The position numbers and the translations under genes are program-made. DNA of 43,423 nt from a virus. Each line of letters opens with the position of its first letter. Positions within the stretch are counted from its first letter, which is position 1. The stretch is from positions 1 to 43,423 of the IMG/VR virus record IMGVR_UViG_3300008266_000263; one strand, written 5' to 3'. Shown here in pieces: positions 1,572 through 43,423 of this stretch. The notes beneath the pieces were generated by a model. That model saw only the letters and a list, made by a program, of their open reading frames with translations, ran no database searches and was not told where the DNA came from.

Positions 1572-3127
1572 TGAGTACTTGGACAGGAGCAGTTAGTACA
1601 GATTGGAATAATGCTGCTAATTGGACAACAGGAGGTACAGGAACTGGTGTTCCTAGTGCAACAGTTGATGCTATTTTTAGTGGCACACCTACAAGACCAT
1701 GTGTGTTAGGTGCAAATAGAACTTGTAGAGCTTTAACTTTTACAGGATATACATCTACTGTTGATTTTGCAACATTTACATTAACTGCTAATAATAATAT
1801 CACATTTCAAGCAGATCAATCAAGCAGAATAATTGGTACAACAGGTATACTAATAAGTGGGGCAACAGGAACTATAACATCTAATGGAGGAACATGGCCT
1901 TTAAATTATAGAATAAATAATTTTGTTGGTACAGTCACTCTTGCAGATAATATGGTTGTTAGTGGAAATTTTTCAACTGGTGCTGGTGGTACAGTAACAG
2001 TAAATGGTAATACTCTTTCTATAGGTGGAAATTTCACAGGAAGTACTACTTTTGTAGGTACAACTAACTTTATAATGAATGGTACAGGAACAATAACTAC
2101 CTGTAATACAAATATTGAATTTAATACAGCAGGAACTATTACAGTTTCAGGAAATCTTTATATACTTAGAAGATTTGTAATTACGGCTGTTGGTACTTTA
2201 ACTGGATTATCAACTTCGAATATTATATTTGAAGGAGTAGCAGGAACAAATACTATTAATTTAGGAGGAAGAACTATAGGTAATTTAACATTAACTACAG
2301 CAGCAGCTCCAACATACCAATTTTTATCAGATTTATATTGTACATCTTTTGTGATGAGTAATGGTACAAATACATATAATGGACCAACTGCCCCTTCAAC
2401 TGCAAAAATATATGCATCTGCTAATCTAACCACAGGAACTGTAGGCTCAACAAATGGTACTTTATCATTAGAAATGACAGGTACAGGAACATTTACTGCA
2501 ACCAATACTTTAGGTTTACCATTAACTTTTAATTCAGGAGTAAATACAATTACTTTTGCTGCTACTTGCAATATTGGCGCTACTACACTTACAAGAACAA
2601 GTGGTGTTATAAATACAGGAGTTGGAACTGTTAATTTATTTGGTACTACATTAAATACACCCGGAATAATATATTATAATATTACAGTAAATTCATCAGC
2701 AGGAGATTCTACTATAACTATTAATTCACTCGCTAGCATGTCAAATAACTTGACAGTAGGTGCTACTGGTAATCCCACCTTTACTGGTTCTGCAGGATGG
2801 ACTTGTGCAAATTTAATATGCTCAAATTCAGGTAGATCCATAACACTAGCAAATATTTCATCTGGTGCTTCTTATAGAACCACAACTAATGCTCAATTGA
2901 GTGGAGTTAATGGTAACCCAATATTAATGACCTCAAATAACGCTACCACAAGATCTCTGTGGACATTAGACAATGGATCTGTTCAATCACTAGCATATGT
3001 AAACGGAACGAGAATTGATTCATCTCAAGGTCAAACAATATGGAGTTTTGGAGGATTTTTAACGGATACTGTTAACTGGGGTACTGGAAGTCAACCTTTG
3101 ACAGTAGCAAATACATTTGTGTGTTAA
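1571..3127 (+). CDS. Adhesin-like tail protein, beta-helix type, copy 1
   Basis: 518 residues, nearly all short Thr/Gly/Asn/Ile-rich beta repeats. The N-terminus has the WTG...dWNNAANW...vPsatvDAiFsG signature seen in autotransporter-like and Bacteroidota surface proteins, followed by a long predicted right-handed beta-helix. The last 115 residues (from base 2782) form a distinct domain with GWTCANLICS, GASYRTTT, SLWTLD and RIDSSQGQTIWSFGG features, closely similar to the end of the next gene. It lies directly downstream of the fibre module and probably forms a receptor-binding or sugar-binding appendage. No signal peptide is present, which fits a virion protein rather than a secreted one. 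The exact virion location is unknown. Confidence 0.75.
   Translation: MSTWTGAVSTDWNNAANWTTGGTGTGVPSATVDAIFSGTPTRPCVLGANRTCRALTFTGYTSTVDFATFTLTANNNITFQADQSSRIIGTTGILISGATGTITSNGGTWPLNYRINNFVGTVTLADNMVVSGNFSTGAGGTVTVNGNTLSIGGNFTGSTTFVGTTNFIMNGTGTITTCNTNIEFNTAGTITVSGNLYILRRFVITAVGTLTGLSTSNIIFEGVAGTNTINLGGRTIGNLTLTTAAAPTYQFLSDLYCTSFVMSNGTNTYNGPTAPSTAKIYASANLTTGTVGSTNGTLSLEMTGTGTFTATNTLGLPLTFNSGVNTITFAATCNIGATTLTRTSGVINTGVGTVNLFGTTLNTPGIIYYNITVNSSAGDSTITINSLASMSNNLTVGATGNPTFTGSAGWTCANLICSNSGRSITLANISSGASYRTTTNAQLSGVNGNPILMTSNNATTRSLWTLDNGSVQSLAYVNGTRIDSSQGQTIWSFGGFLTDTVNWGTGSQPLTVANTFVC
2782..3127 (+). repeat. Shared C-terminal domain, copy 1 of a duplicated segment
   Basis: 346 bases ending the adhesin gene at 1571. 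They align without length change to 4366-4711, keeping long runs such as GGATGGACTTGTGCAAA versus GGTTGGACTTGTGCAAA. Confidence 0.65.
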
Positions 3128-3148
3128 TTAAAAAAGATATTTAAAGAT

Positions 3149-4711
3149 ATGCCTACTTGGACTGGATTAGGAGCTAATAATAACTGGAATACTGTAGGTA
3201 ATTGGGATACTGCAGTTCCAACCGCTGCAACAACTGCATTATTTACTGGTGCTGGAGTAAGTGGTAGTAAAAACTGCACTATTACAGCAGGTGCTGCCTG
3301 CTCACTACTTAGTTGTTCAGCCTACTTAGGTACAATGAGTTTAGCCAACACTCTAACTGTTGTAGGTAATCTTACACTAAATTCAGGAATGGCTATTACT
3401 GGAAGTGGTGGTATATCAAAAACAGGAAACGGAACTCTCATATCAAATGGAGTTACACTGGATGCACCACTAACATTAAATGGAGGCGGTGGTACAGCAC
3501 ATACTTTGGGTAGTAATTGGACAATTAATGGTACTATTAGTCAAAATCTCAGTTCACAAACTATTACAGGGGGTGGATTTACTGCAAGTCTTGGTGCAGG
3601 TTTAACAGTGGGTATACTATCTGCCAACAATGTTACTTTTTTACTTAGAGGAACAGGAACACTATCCGCAACCAGTTATGTCGGAAATACAATTACGGGT
3701 TCAACAATCTTAATAAGCAGTTCAGCAGGAACTATAACCCAAGCTGGATTATCTCTGTCTACATGTACATTTACCTATGTTACTGGTGGTTATAATTCAA
3801 CCGGTACACTAAGTGTAGGAGGTTTAGGAGTTACATTTAATAATATATCAGGAATAGTATTTGATAGTGTAGCTTTTTTAGCAGCTGGTGGACAAGCTAT
3901 AACTCTTAATTCAAACATATATATATCAAGAAGTCTCTCAGTAGGAGCAGTGATTGGGAATATAAATGGGGCTTTTACTGCTTATGTAGGTGGTAATATA
4001 ACACCATCAGTAGGAATAAGAGGAACTGCAACTATAGAAATGAGTGGATCAGGTAATGCATCAATTTCAGCAGGCTCTATTCAAAATAACTTAACTATAA
4101 ATAAAAGCGGAGGAGCAACAGTAACTTTTCCTGCGGGTGGTACAATAACATGGGGTGAGACTGGAAGAACTTTAACATACACTGCAGGAACTATTAATCC
4201 CAGTACATCAACATTCGCTATTCCAAATAATATTCCCGTTACAATAAATGGAATGAGTTTTTATAATTTAACAGTTCCTGGGGGTAATAGTTCTATTGTA
4301 ACTCAAAATGTATTAAATAATATAAGCAATAACTTAACTTTAGGAAGTAATGGAAATATCCTATTTACTGGCTCAGTCGGTTGGACTTGTGCAAACTTAA
4401 TATGCTCAACAATTGGTAGAACAATAACATTAGGAAACAGTAGTACTGGAGCTAGTTATAGAACTACAACTAGTGCAAGCTTAACTGCAACCTCCGCATC
4501 AAGAATCACAATGACCTCAGATAATGCAACCACAAGATCACTATGGACATTAGACTATGGTGCACAACAACAGCTTATATACGTTAATGGTACTCGTATA
4601 GATTCATCTCAAGGTCAAACAATATGGAGTTTTGGAGCAGCGTTAACAAATACAGTTAACTGGACTACCGGATCAAGACCAGGAACAATAGGATATACCT
4701 TTGTAAACTAA
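3149..4711 (+). CDS. Adhesin-like tail protein, beta-helix type, copy 2
   Basis: A 520-residue paralogue of the preceding gene, 21 bases downstream. It opens with MPTWTGLGANNNWNTVGNWD, the same W-rich start, and ends with the same 115-residue domain (bases 4366-4711). The two C-terminal segments have the same length and keep GWTCANLICS, ASYRTTT, RSLWTLD and DSSQGQTIWSFG. The central beta-repeat region is much more diverged. The pattern suggests a tandem duplication in which the tip domain is constrained, perhaps for trimer formation or attachment, and the shaft has changed. A T-rich stretch follows the stop, but I see no strong hairpin terminator. Confidence 0.75.
   Translation: MPTWTGLGANNNWNTVGNWDTAVPTAATTALFTGAGVSGSKNCTITAGAACSLLSCSAYLGTMSLANTLTVVGNLTLNSGMAITGSGGISKTGNGTLISNGVTLDAPLTLNGGGGTAHTLGSNWTINGTISQNLSSQTITGGGFTASLGAGLTVGILSANNVTFLLRGTGTLSATSYVGNTITGSTILISSSAGTITQAGLSLSTCTFTYVTGGYNSTGTLSVGGLGVTFNNISGIVFDSVAFLAAGGQAITLNSNIYISRSLSVGAVIGNINGAFTAYVGGNITPSVGIRGTATIEMSGSGNASISAGSIQNNLTINKSGGATVTFPAGGTITWGETGRTLTYTAGTINPSTSTFAIPNNIPVTINGMSFYNLTVPGGNSSIVTQNVLNNISNNLTLGSNGNILFTGSVGWTCANLICSTIGRTITLGNSSTGASYRTTTSASLTATSASRITMTSDNATTRSLWTLDYGAQQQLIYVNGTRIDSSQGQTIWSFGAALTNTVNWTTGSRPGTIGYTFVN
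4366..4711 (+). repeat. Shared C-terminal domain, copy 2 of a duplicated segment
   Basis: Counterpart of 2782-3127 in the second adhesin. Both end with TGGAGTTTTGGAG and an aACtGG strand followed by a short tail. Confidence 0.65.
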
Positions 4712-5060: not shown

Positions 5061-5078
5061 AAACCCCTTCATAAAAAC

Positions 5079-5632: not shown

Positions 5633-5977
5633 ATGAGCTATCCAGCAGAAGTTACCAAGTATTCGAAAGAAATATCTTCTGAGTTTGAAGAGTATTCTCT
5701 TGTAGAGTTTCGTGAGCCTAAAGAATTTATGCGTCTTTTGGAGCAAAAAATTGAGGATGAATGTTTACAACTTTGGATTGAAGATCCTGAGGATTTTAGA
5801 CTAACTCCTGAAAAACTTACAGAAATAGTTTTAACTATTACAACTCAAACTCATATAAACTCACTAATGAGACAAGGTTTAGTTGATGGTGTTGAAGATG
5901 AAAATGGGGAAATGATTTACTTCCCTACTGAAAAAGGAAAAGAACTACATAAACAATTAGAAAATGAAGAAGCTTAA
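5633..5977 (+). CDS. Acidic protein with winged-helix-like end
   Basis: A 114-residue, strongly acidic protein. The C-terminal half (INSLMRQGLVDGVEDENG, then IYFPTEKGKEL) has the pattern of a winged helix-turn-helix: a recognition-like helix, GLV turn, a beta wing and a Y-x-T-x-KG motif. It might therefore bind DNA or a DNA mimic partner, but the strong acidity argues for caution. It overlaps the next gene by 14 bases and starts 3 bases after the membrane peptide, so the group is one operon. No family name can be given. Confidence 0.65.
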   Translation: MSYPAEVTKYSKEISSEFEEYSLVEFREPKEFMRLLEQKIEDECLQLWIEDPEDFRLTPEKLTEIVLTITTQTHINSLMRQGLVDGVEDENGEMIYFPTEKGKELHKQLENEEA

Positions 5978-6440
5978 ATATTGGTTTAGAGATCTTAAAT
6001 CGGGTATTAGAAATTTATATAACTGGTTTCCTGTTATATGGAAAGATAGAGATTGGGATTACCATTATCTTTTGATTATCCAAAAACATAAACTAGAAAA
6101 ACTTCATAAAAATATCTCTGAAAATTTCTATGATTGCCCTGAAAATTTTGAAAGGAAAAAATCCCTACAAGCCCTAAAAATAGCAATCAATATCCTAGAA
6201 AGAAAAATCAACGATTGGTATTTTGATACCTATTCAGATTTAATTTCAACAGGAGATTGGGATAGTATGTGGGAAAAAGTAGAAAACTCGGAATCTTATA
6301 GAATACGAGAGGATTGGAAAATTTCTCCTGATATGGAATTATATGATTTAAAAAGTAAACAAGCAGGATCTATAGAAAAAAGAGATTGGGATGTTTATAA
6401 TAAAATAATGAATAAATATTTACTTTATTGGTGGGATTAA
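5964..6440 (+). CDS. Conserved-looking phage protein with WKDRDWD motif
   Basis: 158 residues, rich in Trp, Lys and Asp. The N-terminal part (YWFRDLKSGIRNLYNW, FPVIWKDRDWDYHYLL) followed by a long amphipathic helix (KHKLEKLHKNI) resembles a family of uncharacterised proteins that I have seen in T4-like phages, often with WKDRDWD. The second half repeats W-D features (INDWYFD, GDWDSMWEK, EKRDWDVYNK). No catalytic motif is visible. It overlaps the previous gene by 14 bases and lies 1 base before the next. Function unknown. Confidence 0.7.
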   Translation: MKKLKYWFRDLKSGIRNLYNWFPVIWKDRDWDYHYLLIIQKHKLEKLHKNISENFYDCPENFERKKSLQALKIAINILERKINDWYFDTYSDLISTGDWDSMWEKVENSESYRIREDWKISPDMELYDLKSKQAGSIEKRDWDVYNKIMNKYLLYWWD

Positions 6441-6441
6441 T

Positions 6442-6630
6442 ATGGAATTACCTAGAAAAAAACAAAACTTTAGATTAAAAGAATCTAATGAATTATTTCG
6501 TTTGGTTACTATGGCTATGAGTTTTGATATTGAAGGTCAAACTATGGTAGTATTTAAATCTGTATCAACAGGTGTTATATTTACTATCCCTTTAATAGAA
6601 TGGGATGAATATTTTGAACAAGTTTCTTAA
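6442..6630 (+). CDS. Small hypothetical protein
   Basis: A 62-residue protein starting 1 base after the previous stop, last in its operon. The sequence (ESNELFRLVTMAMSFDIEG, FKSVSTGVIFTIPLIEWDEYFEQV) reads as a small beta-barrel-like fold ending in a helix, similar to short regulatory or adaptor proteins of phages. There is no signal peptide or membrane helix. Not recognised. Confidence 0.6.
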   Translation: MELPRKKQNFRLKESNELFRLVTMAMSFDIEGQTMVVFKSVSTGVIFTIPLIEWDEYFEQVS

Positions 6631-6637
6631 TTTTCTG

Positions 6638-6647
6638 ATATTTATAA
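6638..6647 (+). promoter_or_regulatory. Late-type promoter motif ATATTTATAA
   Basis: Exact motif, 12 bases before the ATG at 6660, in a 29-base intergenic gap. It suggests that the secreted protein at 6660 is transcribed separately from the early operon upstream. Confidence 0.55.
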
Positions 6648-6659
6648 CAAAAATCCACC

Positions 6660-7436
6660 ATGAAAACTCTAGCCAAAATGGTGTTGCTTTTAGCAATACT
6701 ATCAATAGAGTTGTCTCCAAATCTTTACTCCCAATGTTTTAGCGGTCAACAATTACCTGTATTAAAACACTACCCTGCTATAGGGAATCCTAATTTTATT
6801 CAGCTTTACAATAATGGATTTTGTTTATCAGAAAATATATCTGATACTACTCTTTGGTTTAATTTTTATCCTGAGGGAAAAAATGGATTAATTTATTGGG
6901 GTTATTCTTCTCCTTTAGGTTTTCCAGTTACTGTAACTAGTATTGAATTATATGATACTAACTGTGTTTTGCTTAATGTAGGAAACAGTATTGCTAATTT
7001 TACTGATAGTATCTACTATGTATCTTTTGATATAAGGACTCAATATATTGATAATTTTTGCCCTTATTTTATTGAGATAAATCCATTAGCTGTAGAGTTT
7101 GGTCCCTTAGTAGCCCAACAAGTTAATCAATCTTTATATTTAACTTGGACTACCTATAGTGAAAAAAATGCAAATAATTTCATCATTCAATATAGCTATG
7201 ATTTGAATACTTGGGTAGATGCTACTTCAGTAAAAGCTTCAGGAAACAGATCTACCGCTACTACCTACTCAACCTCTATATACCCTAATTACCCAGGCTT
7301 GATTTATTTAAGAGTAATAGAATATGATTATAATGGAGGTAGAACATTTAGTGAAATTATAATGGCTAAGTATTATCCAGTTGAAGTTAGGATGGAACAT
7401 TATGATTTAGCAGGAAGATTAATTTATGTAAAATAA
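6660..7436 (+). CDS. Secreted protein with FN3-like domain and truncated T9SS-like end
   Basis: 258 residues. The N-terminus (MKTLAKMVLLLAILSIELSP, then NLYSQ) is a typical Bacteroidota signal peptide with probable cleavage near residue 25. Residues about 150-240 follow the Bacteroidota FN3-like pattern: LYLTWTTYSEKNANNFIIQY, a W-x-D-A-T strand, and LIYLRVIEYDYNGGRTFSEI. The chain stops right after EHYDLAGRLIYVK, which matches the first strand of a type-IX-secretion C-terminal sorting domain (YDLxGRxV) but lacks the remaining strands. It should be exported to the periplasm; whether it goes further is unclear. Candidate roles are envelope modification or superinfection exclusion, by inference. 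A virion role is less likely because of the signal peptide. Confidence 0.75.
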   Translation: MKTLAKMVLLLAILSIELSPNLYSQCFSGQQLPVLKHYPAIGNPNFIQLYNNGFCLSENISDTTLWFNFYPEGKNGLIYWGYSSPLGFPVTVTSIELYDTNCVLLNVGNSIANFTDSIYYVSFDIRTQYIDNFCPYFIEINPLAVEFGPLVAQQVNQSLYLTWTTYSEKNANNFIIQYSYDLNTWVDATSVKASGNRSTATTYSTSIYPNYPGLIYLRVIEYDYNGGRTFSEIIMAKYYPVEVRMEHYDLAGRLIYVK

Positions 7437-7455
7437 AATTTAATTTTTTTAAAAC

Positions 7456-7510
7456 GTCATATTAAAGTCATATAAAAGTTTGGTCTCGCAAGAGGCCATT
7501 CGTATCTTTC
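7456..7510 (+). promoter_or_regulatory. Early-type promoter with paired GTCAT boxes
   Basis: GTCAT boxes at 7456 and 7467 (11 bases apart), TTTG at 7479-7482, exactly 20 bases, then TATCTTTC at 7503-7510. The spacer holds a GGTCTC-GCAA-GAGGCC hairpin (7482-7497). The ATG at 7532 is 21 bases downstream after a TTAAAAAC leader. Confidence 0.75.
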
Positions 7511-7531
7511 GGCAAATTAAAAACGCAACAT

Positions 7532-7747
7532 ATGACTAATCAAATAATTAATTTTGATGATGGAGTAACAGCAAACTTCACTAAAAGAGATGGAAAAATC
7601 ATTTCTGTTGAGTTTGATTACCCTGCTGGTTATAAAACATTCGAAGAGGAACAAGAAGAATTACCTATCACCAAACGTAAGTATTTAAATGAAGAAACAG
7701 GTGATTGGGTAGGTTATGGAAGAGCAAAACAATTAGGAATTATTTAA
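7532..7747 (+). CDS. Small acidic hypothetical protein
   Basis: 71 residues, acidic, no membrane segment. MTNQIINFDDGVTANFTKRD, then GKIISVEFDYPAGYKTFEEE reads as a beta-hairpin domain, and the end has LNEETGDWVGYGRAKQLGI. It is directly behind a strong early-type promoter and an A-rich leader, so it is probably one of the first products made after infection. It may share a transcript with the tRNA-like gene that starts 10 bases after the stop. No recognised family. Confidence 0.65.
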   Translation: MTNQIINFDDGVTANFTKRDGKIISVEFDYPAGYKTFEEEQEELPITKRKYLNEETGDWVGYGRAKQLGII

Positions 7748-7757
7748 TTTTTATAAT

Positions 7758-7872
7758 GGTTAGGTGGCGGAATTGGCGAGACGCAAGTATCATAGTGAGA
7801 TACTAATAGTGTGGTGAAAGTCCACTTTAAATCCTAGTTACCTATCTGCAGGTTCGAGTCCTGCCCTGACCA
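7758..7872 (+). tRNA. Abnormal 115-base tRNA-like gene with Leu-type D-arm
   Basis: The acceptor GGTTAGG/CCTGACC pairs over 7 positions (one T-G), the T-arm GCAGG-TTCGAGT-CCTGC is perfect, the discriminator A is followed by CTA, and the D-arm GGCGGAATTGGCGAGACGC is typical of class II (Leu) tRNAs. The next hairpin, AGTATC-ATAGTGA-GATACT, has a 7-base loop with T at position 33 and would give anticodon AGT, which is not a Leu codon and is abnormal for a bacterial Thr tRNA. Between it and the T-arm are about 43 bases, far more than a normal variable arm, with an internal GTGG/CCAC hairpin. It may contain an insertion, be degenerate, or be a tRNA mimic. Identity is unresolved. Confidence 0.6.
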
Positions 7873-7891
7873 CTAATTTTAATAAAAAACT

Positions 7892-7981
7892 ATGGATACA
7901 ATCTATTCAGTAATATTGATTATATTACTTTTGATTACAATTCGCAAAATGTATAAAGATAAAACTTATATAGGCAAATGA
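7892..7981 (+). CDS. 29-residue membrane peptide
   Basis: MDTIYSVILIILLLITIRKM, followed by a short basic tail, is a single-pass membrane peptide. Its TGA overlaps the ATG of the next gene (ATGA at 7978-7981), the coupling arrangement used throughout this region, which supports it as a real gene despite its size. It starts 20 bases after the tRNA-like gene. Function unknown. Confidence 0.5.
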   Translation: MDTIYSVILIILLLITIRKMYKDKTYIGK

Positions 7982-8376
7982 AAACAACTTACCAAAATCG
8001 TTACGGGGACAATATTGTTTTTGAAAAAGAAGCAAATACAGTCAAAATGACTGGGTATTCACCTTATTTAAGGTTTGGTTATCCTAATGTGTATGATGAT
8101 GCATATGCTGCTTATTGTAAGGATATTGAGAATCCTATGGATTTAAATTTATTTAAAAATAAAATCCATGAATGGAAAGAAGGAAAAGTAAACCCACTTA
8201 AACAATATGAAAAGTTAGTTTATTCAGATCTTTCTAAATATGATATGGTAGATCCATCAGGTGGTCCTTATTTAGCAGTAGGAACTAATTTAAAATATTA
8301 TTTTGGAGTAAAAGAAAATATAATCATTGAATCAATCCATTCAGAAAAAGATCATATTCTTTTTAAAATAAAATAG
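7978..8376 (+). CDS. Hypothetical protein
   Basis: 132 residues, soluble, with alternating aromatic and charged residues. No motif I can name. Visible features are the start MKTTYQNRYGDNIVFEKEAN, a tyrosine-rich middle (YPNVYDDAYAAYCKDIENP), a W-K-E-G turn, and a glycine-proline segment DPSGGPYLAVGTNLKYYFGV that suggests a compact beta domain. It is translationally coupled to the membrane peptide before it. The unit ends before the late-type motif at 8392. Confidence 0.6.
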   Translation: MKTTYQNRYGDNIVFEKEANTVKMTGYSPYLRFGYPNVYDDAYAAYCKDIENPMDLNLFKNKIHEWKEGKVNPLKQYEKLVYSDLSKYDMVDPSGGPYLAVGTNLKYYFGVKENIIIESIHSEKDHILFKIK

Positions 8377-8391
8377 AATTAAATCCTTACC

Positions 8392-8401
8392 ATATTTATA
8401 T
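8392..8401 (+). promoter_or_regulatory. Late-type promoter motif, one-base variant
   Basis: ATATTTATAT, 5 bases before the ATG at 8407, in the gap before the lipoprotein and secreted-protein pair. Confidence 0.45.
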
Positions 8402-8406
8402 ATAGT

Positions 8407-8673
8407 ATGGTACGGATTTTCTTTTTTGTGATTTTATTGACCATTCTTGGCTGTAAAACAAAAAATGTTTTGTATACTGACTATATCCTTATTGAAAAAA
8501 CCGATGGAACTAAGGATACACTTACCCACAAATATTGGAATAAATTTACTTGGGATGAATATAAAATGGAATGGTTTGTAAAATATCATAATTTAGATAT
8601 TAAACAGGTTTCTAATGTTAAATTATTATATACAACTAAAAAAGTATTTACTGATAAACAATTAAATAAATGA
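8407..8673 (+). CDS. Small predicted lipoprotein
   Basis: 88 residues beginning MVRIFFFVILLTILGCKTKN. The short hydrophobic stretch ending L-G-C fits a signal peptidase II lipobox with Cys16 as the lipidated residue, although the -2 Leu is not ideal. The mature part is basic and contains TDGTKDTLTHKYWNKFTWDE, with no enzymatic motif. Its stop overlaps the ATG of the PKD-domain protein (ATGA at 8670), so the two are made together and may act together at the envelope. Possible roles include superinfection exclusion, by analogy with other phage lipoproteins. Confidence 0.65.
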   Translation: MVRIFFFVILLTILGCKTKNVLYTDYILIEKTDGTKDTLTHKYWNKFTWDEYKMEWFVKYHNLDIKQVSNVKLLYTTKKVFTDKQLNK

Positions 8674-9656
8674 AACAGTTTCTTATTGCTCTGCTACTAT
8701 TAACTAGCATAGCAAGTTACAGTCAGGGTGGTGTTAGATTATTTTTTGAAAAATCAAATCAATTCTATAAACAAACCATTATTACATTCTCAGAATCAAC
8801 TACAGACCAAGCCGATAATTGTTGCGATGCATTAAGGCTCCCTGGTTCAGAACAAGCAATTTGGTCATACATAGGAACAGGAGAATATATAATTAATTCG
8901 TTTGGGTACTTAACAGAAGATAAATTAATTCAGTTAGGTACCTCTGCTTTTCCTGATACAGGTACATTTACTATAGGTGTAGATCAAGTTATAGGAGACA
9001 CATTATCCTATGTTTTAATAGATAATTATATATCTGGTTATCATACACTCCCTTATACATTTCAAGGTCCTGTTTCAAATAGATTTTCTATATTATTTGA
9101 ACGTCCACTTCAAATAGAGGTTGAAAATGGTTGTGAGGTAGGATATATAATTATTAATAATGATGAACCCAGTGTCCCATATACTTTATTAAATGAAAAT
9201 AATGAAGTATCATATTTACCCTCCTATACAGATACCATATATGATTTACCAAGTGGAGATTATACCTTATGTTTATATGATTCTATTCCTGAACAAATTA
9301 ATTTTTCTATAAATAATACAGTTATTGATGCTTCTTTATATTTACCTTATACTACAATTTATATAGGGGATTCATATATAGTTCCTGTATTAAATATATA
9401 TTCGCTTTATGATTCTATTGAATGGGATTTTGGAGATGGCAATACAACATCTAATGATTTAAACCCAGTACATTATTATGCCCAAGCTGGTATATATAAT
9501 TTAAGAGTTATTGTTACTGAGGGAATATGTGAAAAAATATTTGAGGCTCAGATTATAGTAGATAATTTAGCTAATATTAATTATGTAAATGCATTTAAAC
9601 ACAAACCAACAAATTATTATTATACAATAGATGGTAAATTAGTTAAAAAGTTATAA
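8670..9656 (+). CDS. Secreted protein with PKD domain and DGKLVKK end
   Basis: 328 residues. A signal peptide covers residues 1-19 (MKQFLIALLLLTSIASYSQ). The mature protein has two beta-rich parts, a Cys pair (NCCDALRLPG), and at about residues 230-300 a clear PKD domain (IEWDFGDGNTTSNDLNPVHY, then AGIYNLRVIV). The end, YYYTIDGKLVKKL, matches the start of a type-IX-secretion sorting domain (DLxGKLVKK) but nothing follows. With the FN3-like protein at 6660 this gives two phage-encoded secreted proteins built from Bacteroidota surface-protein parts. PKD domains usually mediate protein or sugar binding. The product may mask or modify the host surface; that is inference. Confidence 0.75.
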   Translation: MKQFLIALLLLTSIASYSQGGVRLFFEKSNQFYKQTIITFSESTTDQADNCCDALRLPGSEQAIWSYIGTGEYIINSFGYLTEDKLIQLGTSAFPDTGTFTIGVDQVIGDTLSYVLIDNYISGYHTLPYTFQGPVSNRFSILFERPLQIEVENGCEVGYIIINNDEPSVPYTLLNENNEVSYLPSYTDTIYDLPSGDYTLCLYDSIPEQINFSINNTVIDASLYLPYTTIYIGDSYIVPVLNIYSLYDSIEWDFGDGNTTSNDLNPVHYYAQAGIYNLRVIVTEGICEKIFEAQIIVDNLANINYVNAFKHKPTNYYYTIDGKLVKKL

Positions 9657-9657
9657 T

Positions 9658-9861
9658 ATGAAAAAGTTATTTTATATAGTTTGGGTTATTATATTAATGG
9701 TTGCTTTCTTTTTCCCAGCAGTAATTAGTTTTGTAACTTGGAATTTTTGGTATATGTTATTATTTTTTGTGTCTTGGATACCAACCTTAGCTCTGTTCTA
9801 TATAGGATTGTTACTAATACCACTTGGGGTTGTAAAAAAGGTCATATTAAAGTCATATTAA
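9658..9861 (+). CDS. Small two-helix membrane protein
   Basis: 67 residues, almost entirely hydrophobic, with two predicted membrane helices (about residues 4-28 and 30-58) separated by an F-V-T-W-N-F-W turn. It starts 1 base after the PKD-protein stop, making a three-gene envelope cluster with the lipoprotein. Its last codons (K-V-I-L-K-S-Y-stop) are written by the two GTCATATTAAA promoter repeats of the next unit, so coding and regulatory DNA overlap here. Function unknown. Confidence 0.65.
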   Translation: MKKLFYIVWVIILMVAFFFPAVISFVTWNFWYMLLFFVSWIPTLALFYIGLLLIPLGVVKKVILKSY

Positions 9862-9896
9862 AACGGAGGCCTCGCAAGAGGCCTTTCGTATCTTTA
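9841..9896 (+). promoter_or_regulatory. Early-type promoter with paired GTCAT boxes and GCAA hairpin
   Basis: GTCATATTAAA repeats at 9841 and 9852, and TATCTTTA at 9889-9896. The position expected for TTTG is replaced by GGAG, so the -33 is poor. A perfect 7-bp hairpin AGGCCTC-GCAA-GAGGCCT occupies 9867-9884. The ATG at 9919 is 22 bases downstream. Confidence 0.65.
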
Positions 9897-11722: not shown

Positions 11723-11727
11723 AAAGC

Positions 11728-11782
11728 GTCATATTAAAGTCATATCAAAATTTGGATTTTTGAAATTCTGTTCGTATCTTTA
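11728..11782 (+). promoter_or_regulatory. Early-type promoter with paired GTCAT boxes
   Basis: The best example: GTCAT at 11728 and 11739, TTTG at 11751-11754, a 20-base spacer, and TATCTTTA at 11775-11782. The ATG at 11809 follows after a TTTAAAAACATAAAAAAC leader. Confidence 0.78.
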
Positions 11783-14392: not shown

Positions 14393-14920
14393 CTATCGCC
14401 AATTATTATACTTATTTATCCAACGATTTAAATATTGCTTATCTTTTATAGGTAAGACATAAGTATTTTCAGTAACATAGTTTTGTACTTTTATACTATC
14501 CATTGGGTAATCTCTTAATAATGAGTTTTGTCTTTTAGATAAATTAAATATAGCTAATATTTTACAACTCATTCGTTTTACACTTCCTATTTTAACTGAG
14601 TCTTGATTAGTTAAATAAAAAGTTACTATCGTAGAATCTGAACAGTATGTTTTTAGTGGTTCACCTTTTCTAAATTCAATTGGTTTAGCCATTTTATCTT
14701 GATAATAAAGTTTAAATGCCATTATAAATTCATATTTTGGAATTTCTAAATTATCTACTATGGGTTGTAGTATAAAACTAGAATCAGGAGTAATAACTAA
14801 AGCTGGAGGTTGTGAAAGTTCTATTTTAGATTCAGTAGTAGAATTATCTCTATCATAGTCTAATAAAAGACTTATGGAAAACATTAATAAAAATACGGAT
14901 ATAGAGAATCTAAGTTTCAT
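14393..14920 (-). CDS. Secreted or membrane-anchored hypothetical protein, minus strand
   Basis: 175 residues, read from 14920. The N-terminus (MKLRFSISVFLLMFSISLLL) is a signal anchor or signal peptide; the rest is a soluble domain with QPPALVITPDSSFILQPIVD, YYQDKMAKPIEFRKGEPLK, and a Trp-containing end (RWINKYNNWR). A C residue pair is present (YCSDSTI, MSCKILA) and could form a disulfide in the periplasm. It is one of only two minus-strand genes. A perfect late-type motif lies 6 bases upstream on the minus strand. Function unknown; export to the envelope is likely. Confidence 0.7.
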   Translation of the reverse strand: MKLRFSISVFLLMFSISLLLDYDRDNSTTESKIELSQPPALVITPDSSFILQPIVDNLEIPKYEFIMAFKLYYQDKMAKPIEFRKGEPLKTYCSDSTIVTFYLTNQDSVKIGSVKRMSCKILAIFNLSKRQNSLLRDYPMDSIKVQNYVTENTYVLPIKDKQYLNRWINKYNNWR

Positions 14921-16294: not shown

Positions 16295-17038
16295 ATGGAG
16301 AATATGGTGATTCCAAAATCATCTTCTAAAAAAAACTATTTTACCAAAGATACCGAAGATGCAATAGTTCAATATAATAACTCAATCGATCCAGAGGAAA
16401 GAGGTAGATTATTTAGAGATCAAATTCATTATGCTTTTTATAAATTAGCGGAGAATTTAATTCATACCTTTAAGTTTTATTATACAGAGGTTGAAAATTT
16501 AGAAGATTTAAAACATGAAATAGTTTCTTTATTAGTAGAGGAAAAGATTCATAAATTTGACCCTTCCAAAGGTGCTAAGGCTTATTCTTATTTTGGTACA
16601 ATAGTTAAAAATTGGCTTATTGTATATAACGATAAGAACTATAAAAAGAAAGTAGATAAAGCACCTATCGAAGATGTTAAATCTAATGAGTCTTTTTCTT
16701 ATTCTTTAGAAGATCAAAAATATAGTGGGGACAAATTATCTAAATTTATCGATCAATATGTAGATTATTGTACTAATAATATTTATGAATTATTTCCGTT
16801 AGATAGATATACTACCCCTTCTGATGAAAATGCTAAAATAGCAGATGCAATATTAGAGTTATTTAGAAAAAGAGAATATTTAGATGTATTTAATAAAAAA
16901 GCTCTTTACATTTATATTAGGGAAATGATAGATGTTAAAACTCCTAAAATTACTAGAGTTGCAAATAAATTAAATGAAATATTTAAGAAAAATTATATAT
17001 TTTATTTAGAAAATGGTTATATAGACTTTAATCATTGA
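16295..17038 (+). CDS. Late transcription sigma factor, gp55-like
   Basis: 247 residues. Residues about 33-110 match sigma-70 region 2: RDQIHYAFYKLAENLIHTFK, a helix LEDLKHEIVSLLVEEKIHKF, and the highly typical DPSKGAKAYSYFGTIVKNWL. T4 gp55 is a reduced sigma factor that has region 2 and directs RNA polymerase to late promoters with only a -10 element; this protein has the same size range. The rest of the chain is basic and lacks a clear region 4, as in gp55. It most likely recognises the ATATTTATAA motif in this genome. It precedes the structural genes, which start with such a motif at 17040. Confidence 0.82.
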   Translation: MENMVIPKSSSKKNYFTKDTEDAIVQYNNSIDPEERGRLFRDQIHYAFYKLAENLIHTFKFYYTEVENLEDLKHEIVSLLVEEKIHKFDPSKGAKAYSYFGTIVKNWLIVYNDKNYKKKVDKAPIEDVKSNESFSYSLEDQKYSGDKLSKFIDQYVDYCTNNIYELFPLDRYTTPSDENAKIADAILELFRKREYLDVFNKKALYIYIREMIDVKTPKITRVANKLNEIFKKNYIFYLENGYIDFNH

Positions 17039-17039
17039 T

Positions 17040-17049
17040 ATATTTATAA
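17040..17049 (+). promoter_or_regulatory. Late-type promoter motif before the structural module
   Basis: Exact ATATTTATAA, 4 bases before the ATG at 17054, overlapping the stop region of the sigma gene. With TATATTTATAACAAA the ATG itself would be at or near +1, implying a leaderless mRNA. Confidence 0.6.
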
Positions 17050-17053
17050 CAAA

Positions 17054-17404
17054 ATGGATTCTTTAGACATAAAAGTATTTGGTAAAAAAACATTTTCCAA
17101 TATTTTAGAAGAAATATATAATAATCAAAAGAAAAAAGAGGCTCAAATATCTGCTTTAATAGCAGAATTAAAACCTCTTATTGGTGATATAGGAGACGCC
17201 ACATTAATTGTTCCTCTTATTAAAGAATATCTTGAAATAGGGGTTAAAAATGATGAACAATTAATTAAAATGGCTACTATTATACAAAGAGTTATGCAAT
17301 CATCTACTACTACTGGTAGTGATTTTTCTATATCTGATGAAGAAAAAGCCCAATTATTAGCAGAAATTGATAAGATAAATAAATCTAATTCTGAGGAAAA
17401 ATAA
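17054..17404 (+). CDS. Small helical protein at head of baseplate operon
   Basis: 116 residues, almost all helical: KTFSNILEEIYNNQKKKEAQ, ISALIAELKPLIGDIGDATL, a leucine-rich middle and an acidic end ISDEEKAQLLAEIDKI. A protein of this kind begins the baseplate gene set in related environmental T4-like phages. It could be a virion component or assembly chaperone. Its TAA overlaps the start of the hub-like gene by one base (TAATG). Confidence 0.65.
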   Translation: MDSLDIKVFGKKTFSNILEEIYNNQKKKEAQISALIAELKPLIGDIGDATLIVPLIKEYLEIGVKNDEQLIKMATIIQRVMQSSTTTGSDFSISDEEKAQLLAEIDKINKSNSEEK

Positions 17405-19386
17405 TGAGTGTACTTAAACCTAATTCTAAAGTAGGTCAATTTTTATCTGTAACAGGTTTATCTGATTTGATAACTCCTGTTAGAGTTAAAAGTATTGTTT
17501 TAGATGAAAGTCATCCTCGTTTTAAAGAATTAGGAGGGTGGAATGCTTTAGGAGTAATTGAATTTGATTCTATAACTAAATCATCTAATTCAAACCAAAA
17601 TCTTTCTACAGCTACTCCATTACTATCAAATATAAAAATTTATCCTTTAATTAATGAATTAGTTTATTTATTATCTCTTCCTAGTTCAAATATTGGGAAA
17701 GCTACCTCATATACAGAAAACTATTATATTAATATAATTGGATTATGGAATCATCCTCATCATAATGGATTTCCTCAAAACCCTAATACTTTAGATCCAA
17801 ATTCTAAAAGAGATTATGAATCGACTTCTGCAGGTGATGTTAGACGAATAAAAGATACTTCTACAGAAATATTTTTAGGAAATACTTTTAAAGAAAGATC
17901 AAATATACATCCTTTATTACCTTTTGAAGGAGATATAATCTATGAAGGTAGATGGGGTAATTCAATTCGTTTAGGTAGTACAGTAAAAGGAACTACTAAT
18001 AATTGGTCTACAACAGGTGAAGACGGAGATCCTATTATTATAATTAGAAATGGACAAGGTAAACAAACAGACGAAGGTTGGATACCTATAACTGAAAATA
18101 TAAACAATGATGATACCTCTGTTTATATAACCAGTACTCAAAATATTCCTTTAAATGCTTCTTCTATTTCATATGAGAGTTACCAACAAAAACCAACTGA
18201 CCCAAAATCATACTCAGGAAAACAAATTATTTTAAATTCTGGTAGATTAGCATTTAATTCTAATACTGATCATATATTATTAAGTTCAGCTAAATCTGTT
18301 AATTTAAATTCATTAGAATCAATAAATATTGATACTAAAGATGCTATTATACAAACATCTGGTAAAATATATTTAGCTGATAAAAATGCTTCTCAACAAG
18401 TTTTATTAGGCAATAAAACAGTTGATTTTTTAAAAGATTTATTAATTTCTTTAAATAAAGTAGCAACTGCATTAATAGCTCTAGCAGAAATACTTCCTCC
18501 AACCCCACAAGTAGGAGTTAATACCTCAGCCGCAGAATTAAATGCTACCATTAGTAGATTGCTTTCTCAAACTAATAATTTATTATCCAAAGATGTATAT
18601 ATAAAAGACAATGGAGCATCTCTATTTTTATCACCTAATTCAGAAAATTTATCACCTCAAACTGAAGAGTTAATTAAAAATCAAGTAACTAGTTCTACCC
18701 AAACATCTTCGGAAGGAATAACATGGGATGATTTTAATTATAATTCAATAATATCTGAAGGAGGATCACAAATTAGAAGAGGAGATTCTTTTATAGAAGA
18801 TGAAGATCCAAGACCCCCACTTATAAATTATGATGTAGTATTCGTTGGAGGATTAGATGGTAAAGGATATAAAGATATAGTAACCCAAAGTAAAATTTTT
18901 ACTAGAAATATTAATAATAATGTTAATATAAGAACTTACAGTTATACACAAGAAATTGAATATTTAACTTTTATCAAAAATAATCCAAATGTTTATGTTG
19001 TAGTGTTTAGTAAATCTTGTGAATCTTCTGTAAAAATTGCTCAAATTCCAGGTTTTGATAAAAATAAATTATTTATTGTTGAACCTTATACAACAGATGG
19101 TGGAAAAACAACTAAAACAATACAAGATGCAGTAGCAATAGGGGTTCCCGCAAAAAATGTTTATGTTGGATGGGGTATAGGTACAGGACTTATTTCATCT
19201 AAAACAAATCCTTCTATAAAAGTACCTGTTGTAGAAGGTGCTACACCAACAAATTGTGGATTACCTGGATTAATAGGAAGTGATGTTAAATCACATTGGT
19301 GTGCTTTGTTAGTTATTGGTGAAAAAATAAATGATTTATTTAAATCAAAACCCCAAATTGGATTCCCTGATATAATTGATAGATAA
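17404..19386 (+). CDS. Baseplate hub/spike-like protein with extra C-terminal hydrolase-like domain
   Basis: 660 residues. The first 260 residues look like a gp5-like hub: an OB-fold-like N-terminus (SVLKPNSKVGQFLSVTGLSD, then FKELGGWNALGVIEFDSI) and GRWGNSIRLGS. Residues about 275-330 are a beta-helix-like spike (GRLAFNSNTDHILLSSAKSV, NLNSLESINIDTKDAIIQTS). From about residue 474 a separate alpha/beta domain follows (DVVFVGGLDGKGYKDIVTQS), with a VVFSKSCESS turn near 535 and DVKSHWCAL near 629 that could supply a Ser and a His of a hydrolase. T4 gp5 has a lysozyme domain; here the enzyme may be replaced by this C-terminal one, by inference. Confidence 0.72.
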   Translation: MSVLKPNSKVGQFLSVTGLSDLITPVRVKSIVLDESHPRFKELGGWNALGVIEFDSITKSSNSNQNLSTATPLLSNIKIYPLINELVYLLSLPSSNIGKATSYTENYYINIIGLWNHPHHNGFPQNPNTLDPNSKRDYESTSAGDVRRIKDTSTEIFLGNTFKERSNIHPLLPFEGDIIYEGRWGNSIRLGSTVKGTTNNWSTTGEDGDPIIIIRNGQGKQTDEGWIPITENINNDDTSVYITSTQNIPLNASSISYESYQQKPTDPKSYSGKQIILNSGRLAFNSNTDHILLSSAKSVNLNSLESINIDTKDAIIQTSGKIYLADKNASQQVLLGNKTVDFLKDLLISLNKVATALIALAEILPPTPQVGVNTSAAELNATISRLLSQTNNLLSKDVYIKDNGASLFLSPNSENLSPQTEELIKNQVTSSTQTSSEGITWDDFNYNSIISEGGSQIRRGDSFIEDEDPRPPLINYDVVFVGGLDGKGYKDIVTQSKIFTRNINNNVNIRTYSYTQEIEYLTFIKNNPNVYVVVFSKSCESSVKIAQIPGFDKNKLFIVEPYTTDGGKTTKTIQDAVAIGVPAKNVYVGWGIGTGLISSKTNPSIKVPVVEGATPTNCGLPGLIGSDVKSHWCALLVIGEKINDLFKSKPQIGFPDIIDR

Positions 19387-39428: not shown

Positions 39429-42400
39429 ATGTCAGGTTCAGCAGGTGGAAATCGTATTCCGAGAGAAGCTCTACAAAAAACAGTAGACTCTTATATACAA
39501 AAAGTATTAAAAGGATTTAAAGGTTTTAAAAGCGCTAAAATTTCTGGTTCATACAACACCACAGATAAACAAGATTTCGGCGATATAGACTTGATAGTCA
39601 ACATAGAATCGGATTTAGATAAAAAGACTATTAAACAAGATTTAGTTAAACATTTAGAATCCCTCCCAGAAGACTTAATAGTACCTTTTAAAAGTGAAAA
39701 AAATAAAGGTAAACGTTCTCTAAATCATGGAGAAATTGTCACAGTATTATACCCTATTGAAGGTGTACCTGGAGAATTTGTCCAAATAGACAATATTGTA
39801 TCTTTATCTGAAGAAGAAGGAGAATTTAAAAAAAGTGTATTAGATTTACCTGCTGAAAAACAAGGATTAGTTTTAGGATTAATAAAAGTAGTTTTATTAG
39901 AAGAAGATCCTGAAAAAGTATTTGCTAGGATGGGTATTAAAAATATTGATCCTTTAGGTCAAGATGAAGAATATGAATTTCATATTGATACTTCTGGGTT
40001 AACATTAAAAAAAGTTAAATTAGATAAATCAGGTGATAAAATAAAAACAGTAGAATCTACTGATGTTTGGAAAACATCAAACTTTAATGATGTTAAAAAA
40101 TTATTATCTAATTTTAATATAGAAGGAAGTTTTGATGATATCGTTAGTGATATAAAGAAATTCAAAAACCCAAGATCTAAAGATCGAGTAAAAGGTTGGT
40201 TTTTAAAAAATATTAGAGTTCAAGCTGGGGAAATGGGTACTCCAAAAGCAGAAAAAAAACAACAAGCCATTGATGCTGTAACTGCTTTGGAAGGAAAATA
40301 TAATTCTTTAGTTATGGAATTAATTAAACCTTTAATTGAAGGAATAAAAATTCCAATAACAGAAGAACCACAAAAAACTATAGCTGTATTTCCTGGTAAA
40401 TTTAAACCACCACATAAAGATCATTTAAATAGGATCAGAGCAGCAGCTTTAGATGCTGATGAAGTAATTGTTTTGGTTTCTCCTAAATCATCAGAAGAAG
40501 ACTCAAATCAAGAAACTATAACAGCACAACAAAGTAAAGCTATATTTGATTTATATAAAAGTAAAGGCTTATTACCGGATAATGTTGAAATTCTAATATC
40601 TAATGATATTTTATATAAAGGAAATAATGGTGAAATATTAGCTCATAATTCTCCTGTACGGGTGGCTTATGAAATGATGGATAAAAGATCTGGTCCTAAT
40701 TATATAGCTGTATTTGGTAAAGAAGAAGATCTTAAAAGATTTGGAAAAGTTCCTTCAAATGTTACTGTTAAAAATTATAACGGAGCAGCAGGAAATTTAA
40801 GTGCTACTGATTTAAGAATAGCTTTAAAAAATAACCAAGATATATCTAGTTATATTCCTAAAGAAATAAGTCAAGAAGAATATAAAAATACTTTAGGTTT
40901 AAACACTGTACAAGAAGAAAAAATAACTCTTGATAAAACTTCATTATATAGTATAGCTGAATTTTATAATGTTGAGGCTAAAGAATTAAGAGAATCTTTT
41001 AGAAAAGGTATCAAAATTGAATCAAAAAATATCTCAAAAGATAGTGCTAGGCAAATAGTTTTAGATAATTTATCTAAAAATCCTAAACATTATAACTCAA
41101 TTCCTAAACCAGCCCCTATCTTAAAAGAAACCCCACCTCAACCAGTTGAAGAATACCAAACTCAATCTTCTCTAAACCCAGAAATTTGGGAAGGAGATAA
41201 AATAAAACCTGAATTAGCTCAAGCTTTAATAAAGATAGCTAAAAAATTCTATAAAGATTTAAACATATATTATCCTTTAGAAGATATAATATTAGTAGGA
41301 AGTTCAGCTAATTATAATTGGACTAAACTTAGCGATGTTGATCTTCATTTACTTATTGATTTTTCTCAAGTTAAAGATCCTCAATTATTTAAGGATTATG
41401 TTGACTCGAAGAAAAATGAATTTAACAGTAAATATGATTTAAAATATAAAGAACATCCTGTTGAAGTTTATGTTCAAGATGTAGAGGAACCCAATGCTGC
41501 TCAAGGAGTATATTCTTTAATGAAAGATGAATGGATTAAGATTCCTAAAAAAGAAGATATTGAAGTTCCTGATTCTGAAATAGATAAAAAGGCTGAGCCT
41601 TTAATAAATCAAATTGATGATTTAATCGCTGATAGAGCTACAACACCTGAAGATATAAGAGATCTTAAAGCAAAAATTAGAAAATTTAGAAAATCAGGTT
41701 TAGAAACTGATGGAGAATATTCAATAGAAAATTTAGCTTTTAAAAAACTAAGATATAACGGGTATTTAGAAAAACTTAGTGATTTAGAAAAACACATAAA
41801 TATTAAAGATTTTGGTTTAGAAAACATAAAAGAAACCATCTCAGATACACTAAAAAAACCATTAGCTTCTTTAACTAAATATATTTCTTCTAACATTAAT
41901 ATAGAACCTTTACCAAAGGTAAAATTTATTGATGATGATAAAGAAAATGCTAACAATATTTTAGGAAAAACAGCATATTATAACCCTAATAATAAATCAA
42001 TAACACTTTATACATTAAATCGTCATCCTAAAGATATATTGAGAAGTTTTTCTCATGAAATGATACACCATAATCAAAATTTAGAGGATAGATTGAATAA
42101 TATTAATACTACTAATACCAATGAAGATGGTGATTTACCTGAAATAGAAAGAGAAGCATATGAAAAAGGTAATATGTTTTTTAGAAATTGGGAAGATCAA
42201 ATTAAAAATACTCCATTAAATGAAATTATAATTAGAACTCCTTTTAGTTTATTTAAATTATATGATGCGTATAGAAAAGATGGATTTTATAAAGATTATA
42301 TAACTAAAAATGGGTATATGGTATTCCATTTATTATCTAATGATTTAATAGATAAAATATACCCTGATTCTAAAGATAAAGAATTAGCTCAACGGGAAAT

Positions 42401-43423
42401 AGAAAAACTATCTAAAGAAAATGGCAGCAGCTATATACTTTTTGATTCTCAAAATAAAATAATAGAATTACCTATCCCTTTAGGACAAGGATATTATGCT
42501 GAAGTAATTGATGGTAGATGGATTCGAGACAGAAGAAAAGACTCCTCAGAAGTTATATTAGATTCAGAAAAAAATTTCAAAGAAATCATAAAATCTGATC
42601 CTAATTACGTAATACAAAAACCAGAAGATAATATTATAGTATATAAATCTAACGGCCAATATGTTTTTTTCAATTTAGCTACAGAAACAATATTAGGGAA
42701 ATTTGATGATTATGATAAACAATGGGATCCTGATACTGGATATAGAGGAAATAATTATATTATAAAAAAAGATGGAAAGGCAGGATTTGCTTCATTAGAA
42801 AATGGTGTATTAACAACCAATTTTGAATTTGAAGATGTTAAAGATAGAATGGGTTATAAAGAGGGGTATACTTATTATCTAGATAAAAATAATAAACCTT
42901 TATATAAAGTAAAGGGTACATATGATTCGATATACCCAACTGATACTGATAAGTTTATAGTTCGTGGTAAAAAAGGATTTGCTTTAGTAACATCTGATGG
43001 AAAAATTATTATTCCTTCTTCTCAATCATCAACTTTAAGAAAAGTAAATAATTATTATATTAGAAGTACCTCAAATACATTTGCTATATTTGATGAAAAT
43101 GGTAACCAATTATCTGTTTATGATATAAGAGAACCTCAATTAATGAATATAAGAAATTTTACTCAATTAGATAAAATTTTACAAATTATTCCTGCAGAAG
43201 ATTTACATAAAATATTTTCTTTATTGGATTGGGCTCAAATAATTGCGTATTCTAAAGATCCTGAAAAAACAGTAGAACTAACTAAAGCAGGAGATGTTAT
43301 TGCTAAATTCGATGATGAGGTTATAAAAGATGCTTTAAAACGAACCCCTGGAAATAAAAAAGTAACTTTATTAAAAATATTTAAACAATATAATAATTCT
43401 CCTATATTAAATAAATATTATAA
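39429..43423 (+). CDS. Giant multidomain protein: NTase, HxGH nucleotidylyltransferase, NTase, zincin, WG repeats; 3' end outside window
   Basis: The frame starts at 39429 (MSGSAGGNRIPREALQKTVD) and stays open for 1331 codons to the window end. Domains read in order: (1) Pol-beta nucleotidyltransferase, G40-S41 ... GDIDLIV with D52/D54; (2) HIGH-type nucleotidylyltransferase, FPGKFKPPHKDHL at 321-333 with H329/H332 and SATDLR at 458-463 (the ISxTxxR motif); (3) second Pol-beta type, VGSSANYNWTKLSDVDLHLL at 623-642, D636/D638; (4) zincin, SHEMIHH with HExxH at 876-880 and E905/E907/E909 as third ligand; (5) WG-like beta repeats (KDGKAGFASLENG; RGKKGFALVTSDGK), about 1080-1170. The end is helical. 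No signal peptide. It fits the polyvalent-protein class of phage effectors delivered with DNA; the targets are unknown. Confidence 0.8.
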   Translation, partial: MSGSAGGNRIPREALQKTVDSYIQKVLKGFKGFKSAKISGSYNTTDKQDFGDIDLIVNIESDLDKKTIKQDLVKHLESLPEDLIVPFKSEKNKGKRSLNHGEIVTVLYPIEGVPGEFVQIDNIVSLSEEEGEFKKSVLDLPAEKQGLVLGLIKVVLLEEDPEKVFARMGIKNIDPLGQDEEYEFHIDTSGLTLKKVKLDKSGDKIKTVESTDVWKTSNFNDVKKLLSNFNIEGSFDDIVSDIKKFKNPRSKDRVKGWFLKNIRVQAGEMGTPKAEKKQQAIDAVTALEGKYNSLVMELIKPLIEGIKIPITEEPQKTIAVFPGKFKPPHKDHLNRIRAAALDADEVIVLVSPKSSEEDSNQETITAQQSKAIFDLYKSKGLLPDNVEILISNDILYKGNNGEILAHNSPVRVAYEMMDKRSGPNYIAVFGKEEDLKRFGKVPSNVTVKNYNGAAGNLSATDLRIALKNNQDISSYIPKEISQEEYKNTLGLNTVQEEKITLDKTSLYSIAEFYNVEAKELRESFRKGIKIESKNISKDSARQIVLDNLSKNPKHYNSIPKPAPILKETPPQPVEEYQTQSSLNPEIWEGDKIKPELAQALIKIAKKFYKDLNIYYPLEDIILVGSSANYNWTKLSDVDLHLLIDFSQVKDPQLFKDYVDSKKNEFNSKYDLKYKEHPVEVYVQDVEEPNAAQGVYSLMKDEWIKIPKKEDIEVPDSEIDKKAEPLINQIDDLIADRATTPEDIRDLKAKIRKFRKSGLETDGEYSIENLAFKKLRYNGYLEKLSDLEKHINIKDFGLENIKETISDTLKKPLASLTKYISSNINIEPLPKVKFIDDDKENANNILGKTAYYNPNNKSITLYTLNRHPKDILRSFSHEMIHHNQNLEDRLNNINTTNTNEDGDLPEIEREAYEKGNMFFRNWEDQIKNTPLNEIIIRTPFSLFKLYDAYRKDGFYKDYITKNGYMVFHLLSNDLIDKIYPDSKDKELAQREIEKLSKENGSSYILFDSQNKIIELPIPLGQGYYAEVIDGRWIRDRRKDSSEVILDSEKNFKEIIKSDPNYVIQKPEDNIIVYKSNGQYVFFNLATETILGKFDDYDKQWDPDTGYRGNNYIIKKDGKAGFASLENGVLTTNFEFEDVKDRMGYKEGYTYYLDKNNKPLYKVKGTYDSIYPTDTDKFIVRGKKGFALVTSDGKIIIPSSQSSTLRKVNNYYIRSTSNTFAIFDENGNQLSVYDIREPQLMNIRNFTQLDKILQIIPAEDLHKIFSLLDWAQIIAYSKDPEKTVELTKAGDVIAKFDDEVIKDALKRTPGNKKVTLLKIFKQYNNSPILNKYY

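Follow-up and report, generated by a model that had tools for sequence, protein, structure and literature searches.

Proteins exported by the type IX secretion system (T9SS) through a type A C-terminal sorting domain (CTD; models TIGR04183 and PF18962), such as RgpB and RemZ, have a Sec signal peptide, an Ig/FN3-like domain ahead of the C-terminus and a D-x-x-G-R motif in the CTD. In RgpB the motif residues D696, G699 and R700 are located in the strand 3-loop-strand 4 part of the CTD (PMC4804311). Mizgalska et al. named this motif Lβ3β4 and found that changing RgpB F695-DMNGRR-701 to GG, or the single mutation G699R, blocks cargo secretion, the C-terminal motif being the other essential part of the RgpB CTD (PMC11285876). 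According to the published T9SS rules the export signal is the last 22 residues, and cargo that has lost the C-terminal motif stays in the periplasm. In this paper we looked at two genes, named here family 1 (6660–7436) and family 2 (8670–9656), in a 43.4 kb linear fragment of viral DNA (IMG/VR record IMGVR_UViG_3300008266_000263), which as a whole is called the window. The family 1 protein resembles type A cargo in all three respects; its CTD is reduced to what is, judged by its sequence, an isolated Lβ3β4 motif, and this motif is under strong purifying selection. The genes, domains and promoter-like elements of this cluster are all on the plus strand.

Secreted T9SS-linked proteins encoded by a Bacteroidota phage are also known from Cryophage, whose T9SS cargo was proposed to act in superinfection exclusion (Bellas et al., 2020; PMC7468147). 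In the available part of that report the type A sorting domains are carried by enzymes (endoglucanase, GH39, PA14) and no truncated stub is described. A complete CTD on a phage gene, as in Cryophage, is present in gp015 of the Flavobacterium phage vB_FspM_immuto and in type B genes of relatives of the window phage, but is absent from families 1 and 2. Immuto (160 kb, host Flavobacterium sp. LMO8, accession NC_055915) is the nearest cultured phage by structural genes. A Bacteroidota host of the window phage is very likely, if unproven, because two structural proteins of the window, one of them the baseplate wedge protein, are 43–52% identical to their immuto counterparts. The secreted cluster of immuto, gp013–gp018, consists of signal-peptide proteins with a late-type element before gp013 and the complete type A CTD in gp015; the latter (NC_055915.1 12691–13422), annotated as a "cohesin domain-containing protein", scores 44.8 bits with TIGR04183, for which the cut-off is 23. 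No homologue of family 1 or family 2 was found in immuto. The Llp-type proteins of phage T5 are receptor-blocking lipoproteins. Family 1 is like them a small exported phage protein whose gene is found beside tail-fibre genes; there is no sequence relation, neither family 1 nor family 2 is itself a lipoprotein, and blocking by them would be hypothetical.

The Family 1 Protein and Its C-Terminal Tail

The family 1 gene encodes a protein of 258 amino acids that ends in YDLAGRLIYVK, and the family 2 gene one of 328 amino acids that ends in IDGKLVKKL; both open reading frames (ORFs) and both ends agree with the preliminary description of this DNA, which had been made from the sequence alone. The signal peptides that it gave to the two proteins were also found. 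They were judged by a hydrophobic N-terminus and a Gln at the predicted +1 position, as in the Q-rule for Bacteroidota signal peptides (PMC5837995). In family 1 the predicted cleavage lies between S24 and Q25 (signal peptide 6660–6731), and the Gln at +1 is kept in 10 of 11 members; in family 2 it is present in five of five. The relatives of family 1 come from viral contigs (nine from a first scan and three from later scans), and 11 representatives, 29–76% identical to the window copy, were aligned.

The structure of protein 1 predicted by AlphaFold (mean predicted local distance difference test score, pLDDT, 77.7) shows tandem Ig/FN3-like β-sandwiches followed by a short hairpin. FN3-like or PKD domains had been proposed for the two proteins; for protein 1 the FN3/Ig-like folds are backed by structural fold matches but not by a Pfam FN3 match, and the NCBIfam, Pfam and PHROGs profiles all gave no match to it. 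The second FN3-like domain (7086–7373) has a homologue in the phage LR756504, 34% identical over residues 145–233, and a weak match (E 0.003) in a Portibacter protein. In the phage collection family 1 was found only in two huge uncultured phages, and in bacteria the search gave no match in the Genome Taxonomy Database (GTDB) contigs and one weak partial match among 149 Flavobacteriaceae genomes.

The conserved part of the protein is its end (7401–7433). In the motif Y-D-L-[AS]-G-R the D, G and R are invariant in 11/11 aligned members, and the stop codon follows 2–6 residues past the motif in 10 of them. The exception is L023, with a tail that runs on for ~14 residues past the motif and has a YYV..K ending and no recognisable GxY. 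The 12–15 residues that precede the motif are unalignable among the 11 representatives, so that this linker is free to change in both sequence and length. The ratio of nonsynonymous to synonymous polymorphism (pN/pS) is 0.053 in YDLAGR, as against 0.87 in the 14-residue linker and 0.39 in the body, and the tail ranks fourth in conservation among 277 six-column windows. Synonymous codons in the tail vary freely, and the constraint is therefore on the protein. For family 1 these data support the proposal that selection, and not chance, lies behind the truncation; a phage homologue with a full-length, CTD-like C-terminus exists as well.

To identify the tail, 29 complete CTDs taken from three Flavobacterium genomes were made into a position-specific scoring matrix (PSSM) and a profile, and 488 other phage C-termini served as the background. 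The window tail scores 12.3 bits, a value that none of the 488 background C-termini reaches, and 7/11 family 1 tails outscore every one of them. With the full CTD profile the stub scores marginally, as a segment that covers only 16 of some 75 positions should, and the window stub and several of the relatives' stubs are placed on positions 31–46 or very near. By these alignments the tail consists of strands 3 and 4 of a type A CTD with the Asp "spoon" loop between them (motif B/Lβ3β4, D-x-x-G-R/K); the initial assignment to the first CTD strand was incorrect. CTD strands 1–2, strands 5–7, the GxY motif and the terminal-lysine motif are all missing from the family 1 tails. The type A models TIGR04183, a profile search with which had been named in the preliminary description as a check, and PF18962 matched neither protein and stayed below every cut-off, and no match to the type B CTD (TIGR04131/CHU_C) was found within the window. 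The complete CTD that defines type A cargo is missing from both families, and they are not classified here as T9SS cargo.

A DNA scan of the whole collection for the motif followed by a stop codon returned signal-peptide proteins solely from family 1. In a scan of bacterial genomes for the motif and stop, 21 of the 80 matched stretches listed had in-frame short tails; one of these tails is a genuine truncated CTD, from Maribacter, and the others are chance ORFs. Among the matches listed, short tails of the family 1 kind thus appear to be practically absent from bacterial genomes. The sorting domain of the Maribacter orientalis protein (L104) is cut off where the family 1 tails are (LVYDLAGRLVLSQIL); it lies at a contig end, and a frameshift or an assembly effect could account for it.

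Origin of Family 1

The 636 kb uncultured phage LR756504 encodes a protein of 329 amino acids that has a signal peptide and shares the FN3-like domain; the C-terminus behind this domain is full-length and CTD-like (...FILYDAFGRVIYND...LYILKIV...HKFISE) and is only marginally recognised by the CTD profile. When the two proteins are aligned, the family 1 stub falls exactly on YDAFGRV of the LR756504 protein. The Portibacter protein (L053) with the weak match to the FN3-like domain continues into a CTD with IYDLSGRLISLK. Together with the domain content of family 2 described below, the best explanation of these sequences is that families 1 and 2 are phage-encoded proteins that were probably assembled from modules of host T9SS cargo.

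Related arrangements were seen in the 635 kb uncultured huge phage LR745206.1. One region (L211) has a PKD protein (1718–2992) and, after it, an overlapping ORF (2980–3396) that has the FN3-like domain and ends in a short CTD-like segment, and this pair may be a single gene split by a frameshift. Another region (L212) encodes secreted proteins of 832 (5683–8181) and 732 (16336–18534) amino acids with ends that resemble type B sorting domains.

Family 2 and Its Neighbours

The family 2 protein is predicted to be exported and consists of an N-terminal domain (8727–9119), a PKD domain (9414–9521; PF18911, E 1.1e-8) and a conserved short tail. The PKD domain, which had been predicted, is the sole match of protein 2 among the NCBIfam, Pfam and PHROGs profiles. 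AlphaFold gave only a poor model for family 2 (mean pLDDT 62), which was set aside. The phage collection search gave no family 2 homologue. Among the Flavobacteriaceae genomes 41/149 are matched by the family 2 profile (E <= 1e-8), mostly via the N-terminal domain and in some cases only via PKD. The host proteins with this N-terminal domain whose ends were read all continue into a complete type A CTD, and proteins that consist only of a signal peptide, this domain and a CTD occur among flavobacterial hosts. In the flavobacterial T9SS cargo L204, L205, L207 and L208 the domain follows directly after the signal peptide and the protein ends in a complete CTD, whereas the phage protein contains a PKD domain and its tail is short. 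The idea that these proteins contain parts of Bacteroidota surface proteins is thus supported by the N-terminal domain of protein 2, which belongs to the domains that make up flavobacterial type IX cargo.

The family 2 tail YYTIDGKLVKKL (YYx[IV][DE]G[KR]; 9618–9653) is conserved, with a pN/pS of 0.33 compared with 0.91 for the linker. Its score against the CTD matrix is not significant in the window copy, as 35/488 background C-termini are as good, and is significant in one of five relatives (L006). We therefore do not claim a CTD origin for this tail. It had been proposed that the C-termini of both proteins resemble a sorting domain better than random ends do and that two independent genes end at the same point; both statements hold for family 1, while for family 2 the conserved tail is suggestive only.

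The family 2 gene is flanked, as described before, by genes for a lipoprotein and a membrane protein. The lipoprotein gene (8407–8673; 88 amino acids, lipobox ILGC) precedes family 2 and shares 4 nt (ATGA) with it, an arrangement found in the window and in L011, L012 and L026. Directly downstream of family 2 lies the gene of a 67 amino acid membrane protein with two helices (9658–9861), which has a relative in L011.

Gene Context and Promoter-Like Elements

A late-promoter-like ATATTTAT element is found upstream of family 1 (6638–6645) and another upstream of the lipoprotein/family 2 operon (8392–8399). The window has 15 plus-strand sites of ATATTTAT, 11 of which stand 8–40 nt before a start codon, a zone that makes up 3.5% of the sequence. 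Among the genes that they precede are virion-module genes, family 1 and the lipoprotein/family 2 pair, and the element is also found ahead of the immuto structural genes and gp013. From this distribution we infer that ATATTTAT may be a late promoter. The late-promoter core of T4, TATAAATA, gives the core of this element, TATTTATA, when reverse-complemented.

In four relatives (L003, L004, L005 and L006) the gene immediately ahead of family 1 is of the tail-fibre type, with weak matches to YadA-head or β-roll repeats. TIGR04131 is over its cut-off in proteins of the relatives G001, G002, G008 and G012 (the last a 261 kb contig). These type B CTD genes adjoin family 1 in two cases: in L005 and L006 a gene upstream encodes a complete type B CTD over the cut-off. 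In L008–L010 a type B-like gene, below the cut-off, overlaps family 1 by 4 nt. Further signal-peptide proteins with PKD/Ig-like domains belong to this cluster in L005 (3950–5326 and 5332–5895) and L006 (5322–5888); they end in ..YTN or ..FTN, without a sorting domain.

Other features of the region were also noted. Direct repeats GTCATATTAAAGTCATAT stand just before genes at 7455–7510, 9840–9895 and 11727–11781 of the window (also at 5075 and 11016), followed by a GGCCTCGCAAGAGGCC hairpin in the first two copies and by TTCGTATCTTT; two copies are conserved in L011. The GTCATATTAAAGTCATAT/TTCGTATCTTT repeats resemble promoters of a second and distinct class that have a regulator site upstream. 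A tRNA-like gene with a long variable region (7758–7872), located between the genes of the two secreted proteins, scores 34.3 bits with the Rfam tRNA model and was missed by ARAGORN. A minus-strand gene with a signal-like N-terminus (14393–14920) is conserved in L011 and is related to a gene downstream of family 1 in L043. At 39429–43421, among structural genes, there is an open-ended ORF of 1331 amino acids with weak nucleotidyltransferase and cytidylyltransferase matches.

Discussion

One of the questions raised by these proteins is what a phage may gain from secreted proteins that carry T9SS modules without a complete sorting domain. Their sequences suggest that family 1 and family 2 proteins are transcribed late, together with the virion genes, and are exported by Sec to the periplasm. 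There they would remain and not be delivered to the surface by the T9SS, because truncation of the C-terminal motif retains RgpB in the periplasm. The isolated Lβ3β4 may be displayed as a β-hairpin that engages the host component which reads Lβ3β4 in real cargo, and the lipoprotein/family 2 pair would probably act in the same compartment. Such a decoy or modulator of T9SS traffic could alter the set of adhesins and receptors that the host displays late in infection and could, for example, limit re-adsorption of progeny or of competitors. We give this explanation, the best overall, a probability of about one third. Its stronger form, a dedicated anti-T9SS protein in which the isolated Lβ3β4, lacking the export motif, occupies a periplasmic T9SS step and shuts off adhesin and receptor display, is doubtful.

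Several points are counted in favour of the decoy or modulator. These are the selection on the tail, its match to RgpB FDMNGRR, the full-length homologue in LR756504, the host CTDs behind the family 2 N-terminal domain, the complete type B CTDs of the relatives, the type A CTD of immuto, the late-promoter-like elements and the tail-fibre adjacency in four relatives. Export, late-type promoters and the position of family 1 next to tail-fibre genes would also be compatible with the preliminary proposal that the cluster remodels the envelope or blocks competing phages. Other points weigh against a decoy. In the cryo-electron microscopy (cryo-EM) structure of the F. johnsoniae translocon, the conserved CTD motifs specify the fold and make no contact with the translocon (PMC10994853), and mutation of RgpB D696 alone is without effect (PMC4804311). 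Some relatives have only 2–3 residues past the motif, so that strand 4 can hardly form, and the family 2 tail is not significantly CTD-like. Late expression would leave scant time for exclusion, an effect of the phage proteins on the T9SS is hypothetical, and the host is not known directly.

Another explanation is that the tail is a stable β-hairpin with an Asp turn, descended from a CTD, which completes the fold of the protein without touching the T9SS, the protein having some other envelope role. The folding role that the F. johnsoniae structures assign to the conserved CTD motifs fits this, as do the AlphaFold hairpin at residues 246–257, predicted with moderate confidence (pLDDT in the 70s), and the family 2 tail, which differs in detail. 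Yet a linker that is free in length and sequence would leave the hairpin without a fixed position on the domain, conservation is limited to six residues, and L008 and L010 have almost no strand 4; we regard this explanation as possible but on the whole not probable. A genuine minimal sorting signal for the T9SS is an unlikely role for the short tail. With such a signal the protein would reach the surface or the medium, as is presumed for phage-encoded T9SS cargo whose sorting domain is complete, and would there mask receptors or bind competitors. Known export requires the C-terminal strands and the lysine motif, both absent here, and there is no TIGR04183 match, even if conservation is confined to the signal-like part of the tail, Lβ3β4 is essential in RgpB, other secreted genes of these phages carry full CTDs and the longer tail of L023 has its YYV..K ending. 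Since the known rules would keep both proteins in the periplasm, late periplasmic decoys on the T9SS machinery are favoured.

Roles as accessory parts of the virion or tail fibre, with passage through the periplasm, or as envelope disruptors that act at lysis would agree with the late-promoter-like elements, the position between tail-fibre and structural genes and the lipoprotein partner. Such roles are very unlikely, since the proteins clearly begin with a Sec signal peptide that has Q at +1, whereas tailed-phage virions assemble in the cytoplasm, and no spanin-like architecture is seen. The likeness of YDLAGRL to the YD-repeat consensus could suggest a single YD (RHS-type) repeat, and the DILGRVVTF end of a baseplate protein in the same window could suggest a chance motif. 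Both are highly improbable given the strong purifying selection on the tail and the CTD-like, full-length phage homologue that aligns exactly at the motif. A YD-repeat origin was rejected, as the motif is single, without tandem copies, and no RHS profile matched even at E 10.

An isolated and selected Lβ3β4 stub appears to be new, as it was not found in the literature searched. It bears on a dispute regarding the motif, which is read by the T9SS according to the genetics of P. gingivalis (PMC11285876) and only shapes the fold according to the cryo-EM of F. johnsoniae (PMC10994853). In this phage family selection has kept Lβ3β4 alone, detached from the CTD, and a tail mutant therefore tests the dispute directly. 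If the family 1 protein does block the T9SS, it would be, as far as known, the first natural inhibitor of this system, and it would represent a new route by which Bacteroidota phages could control the surface of their host.

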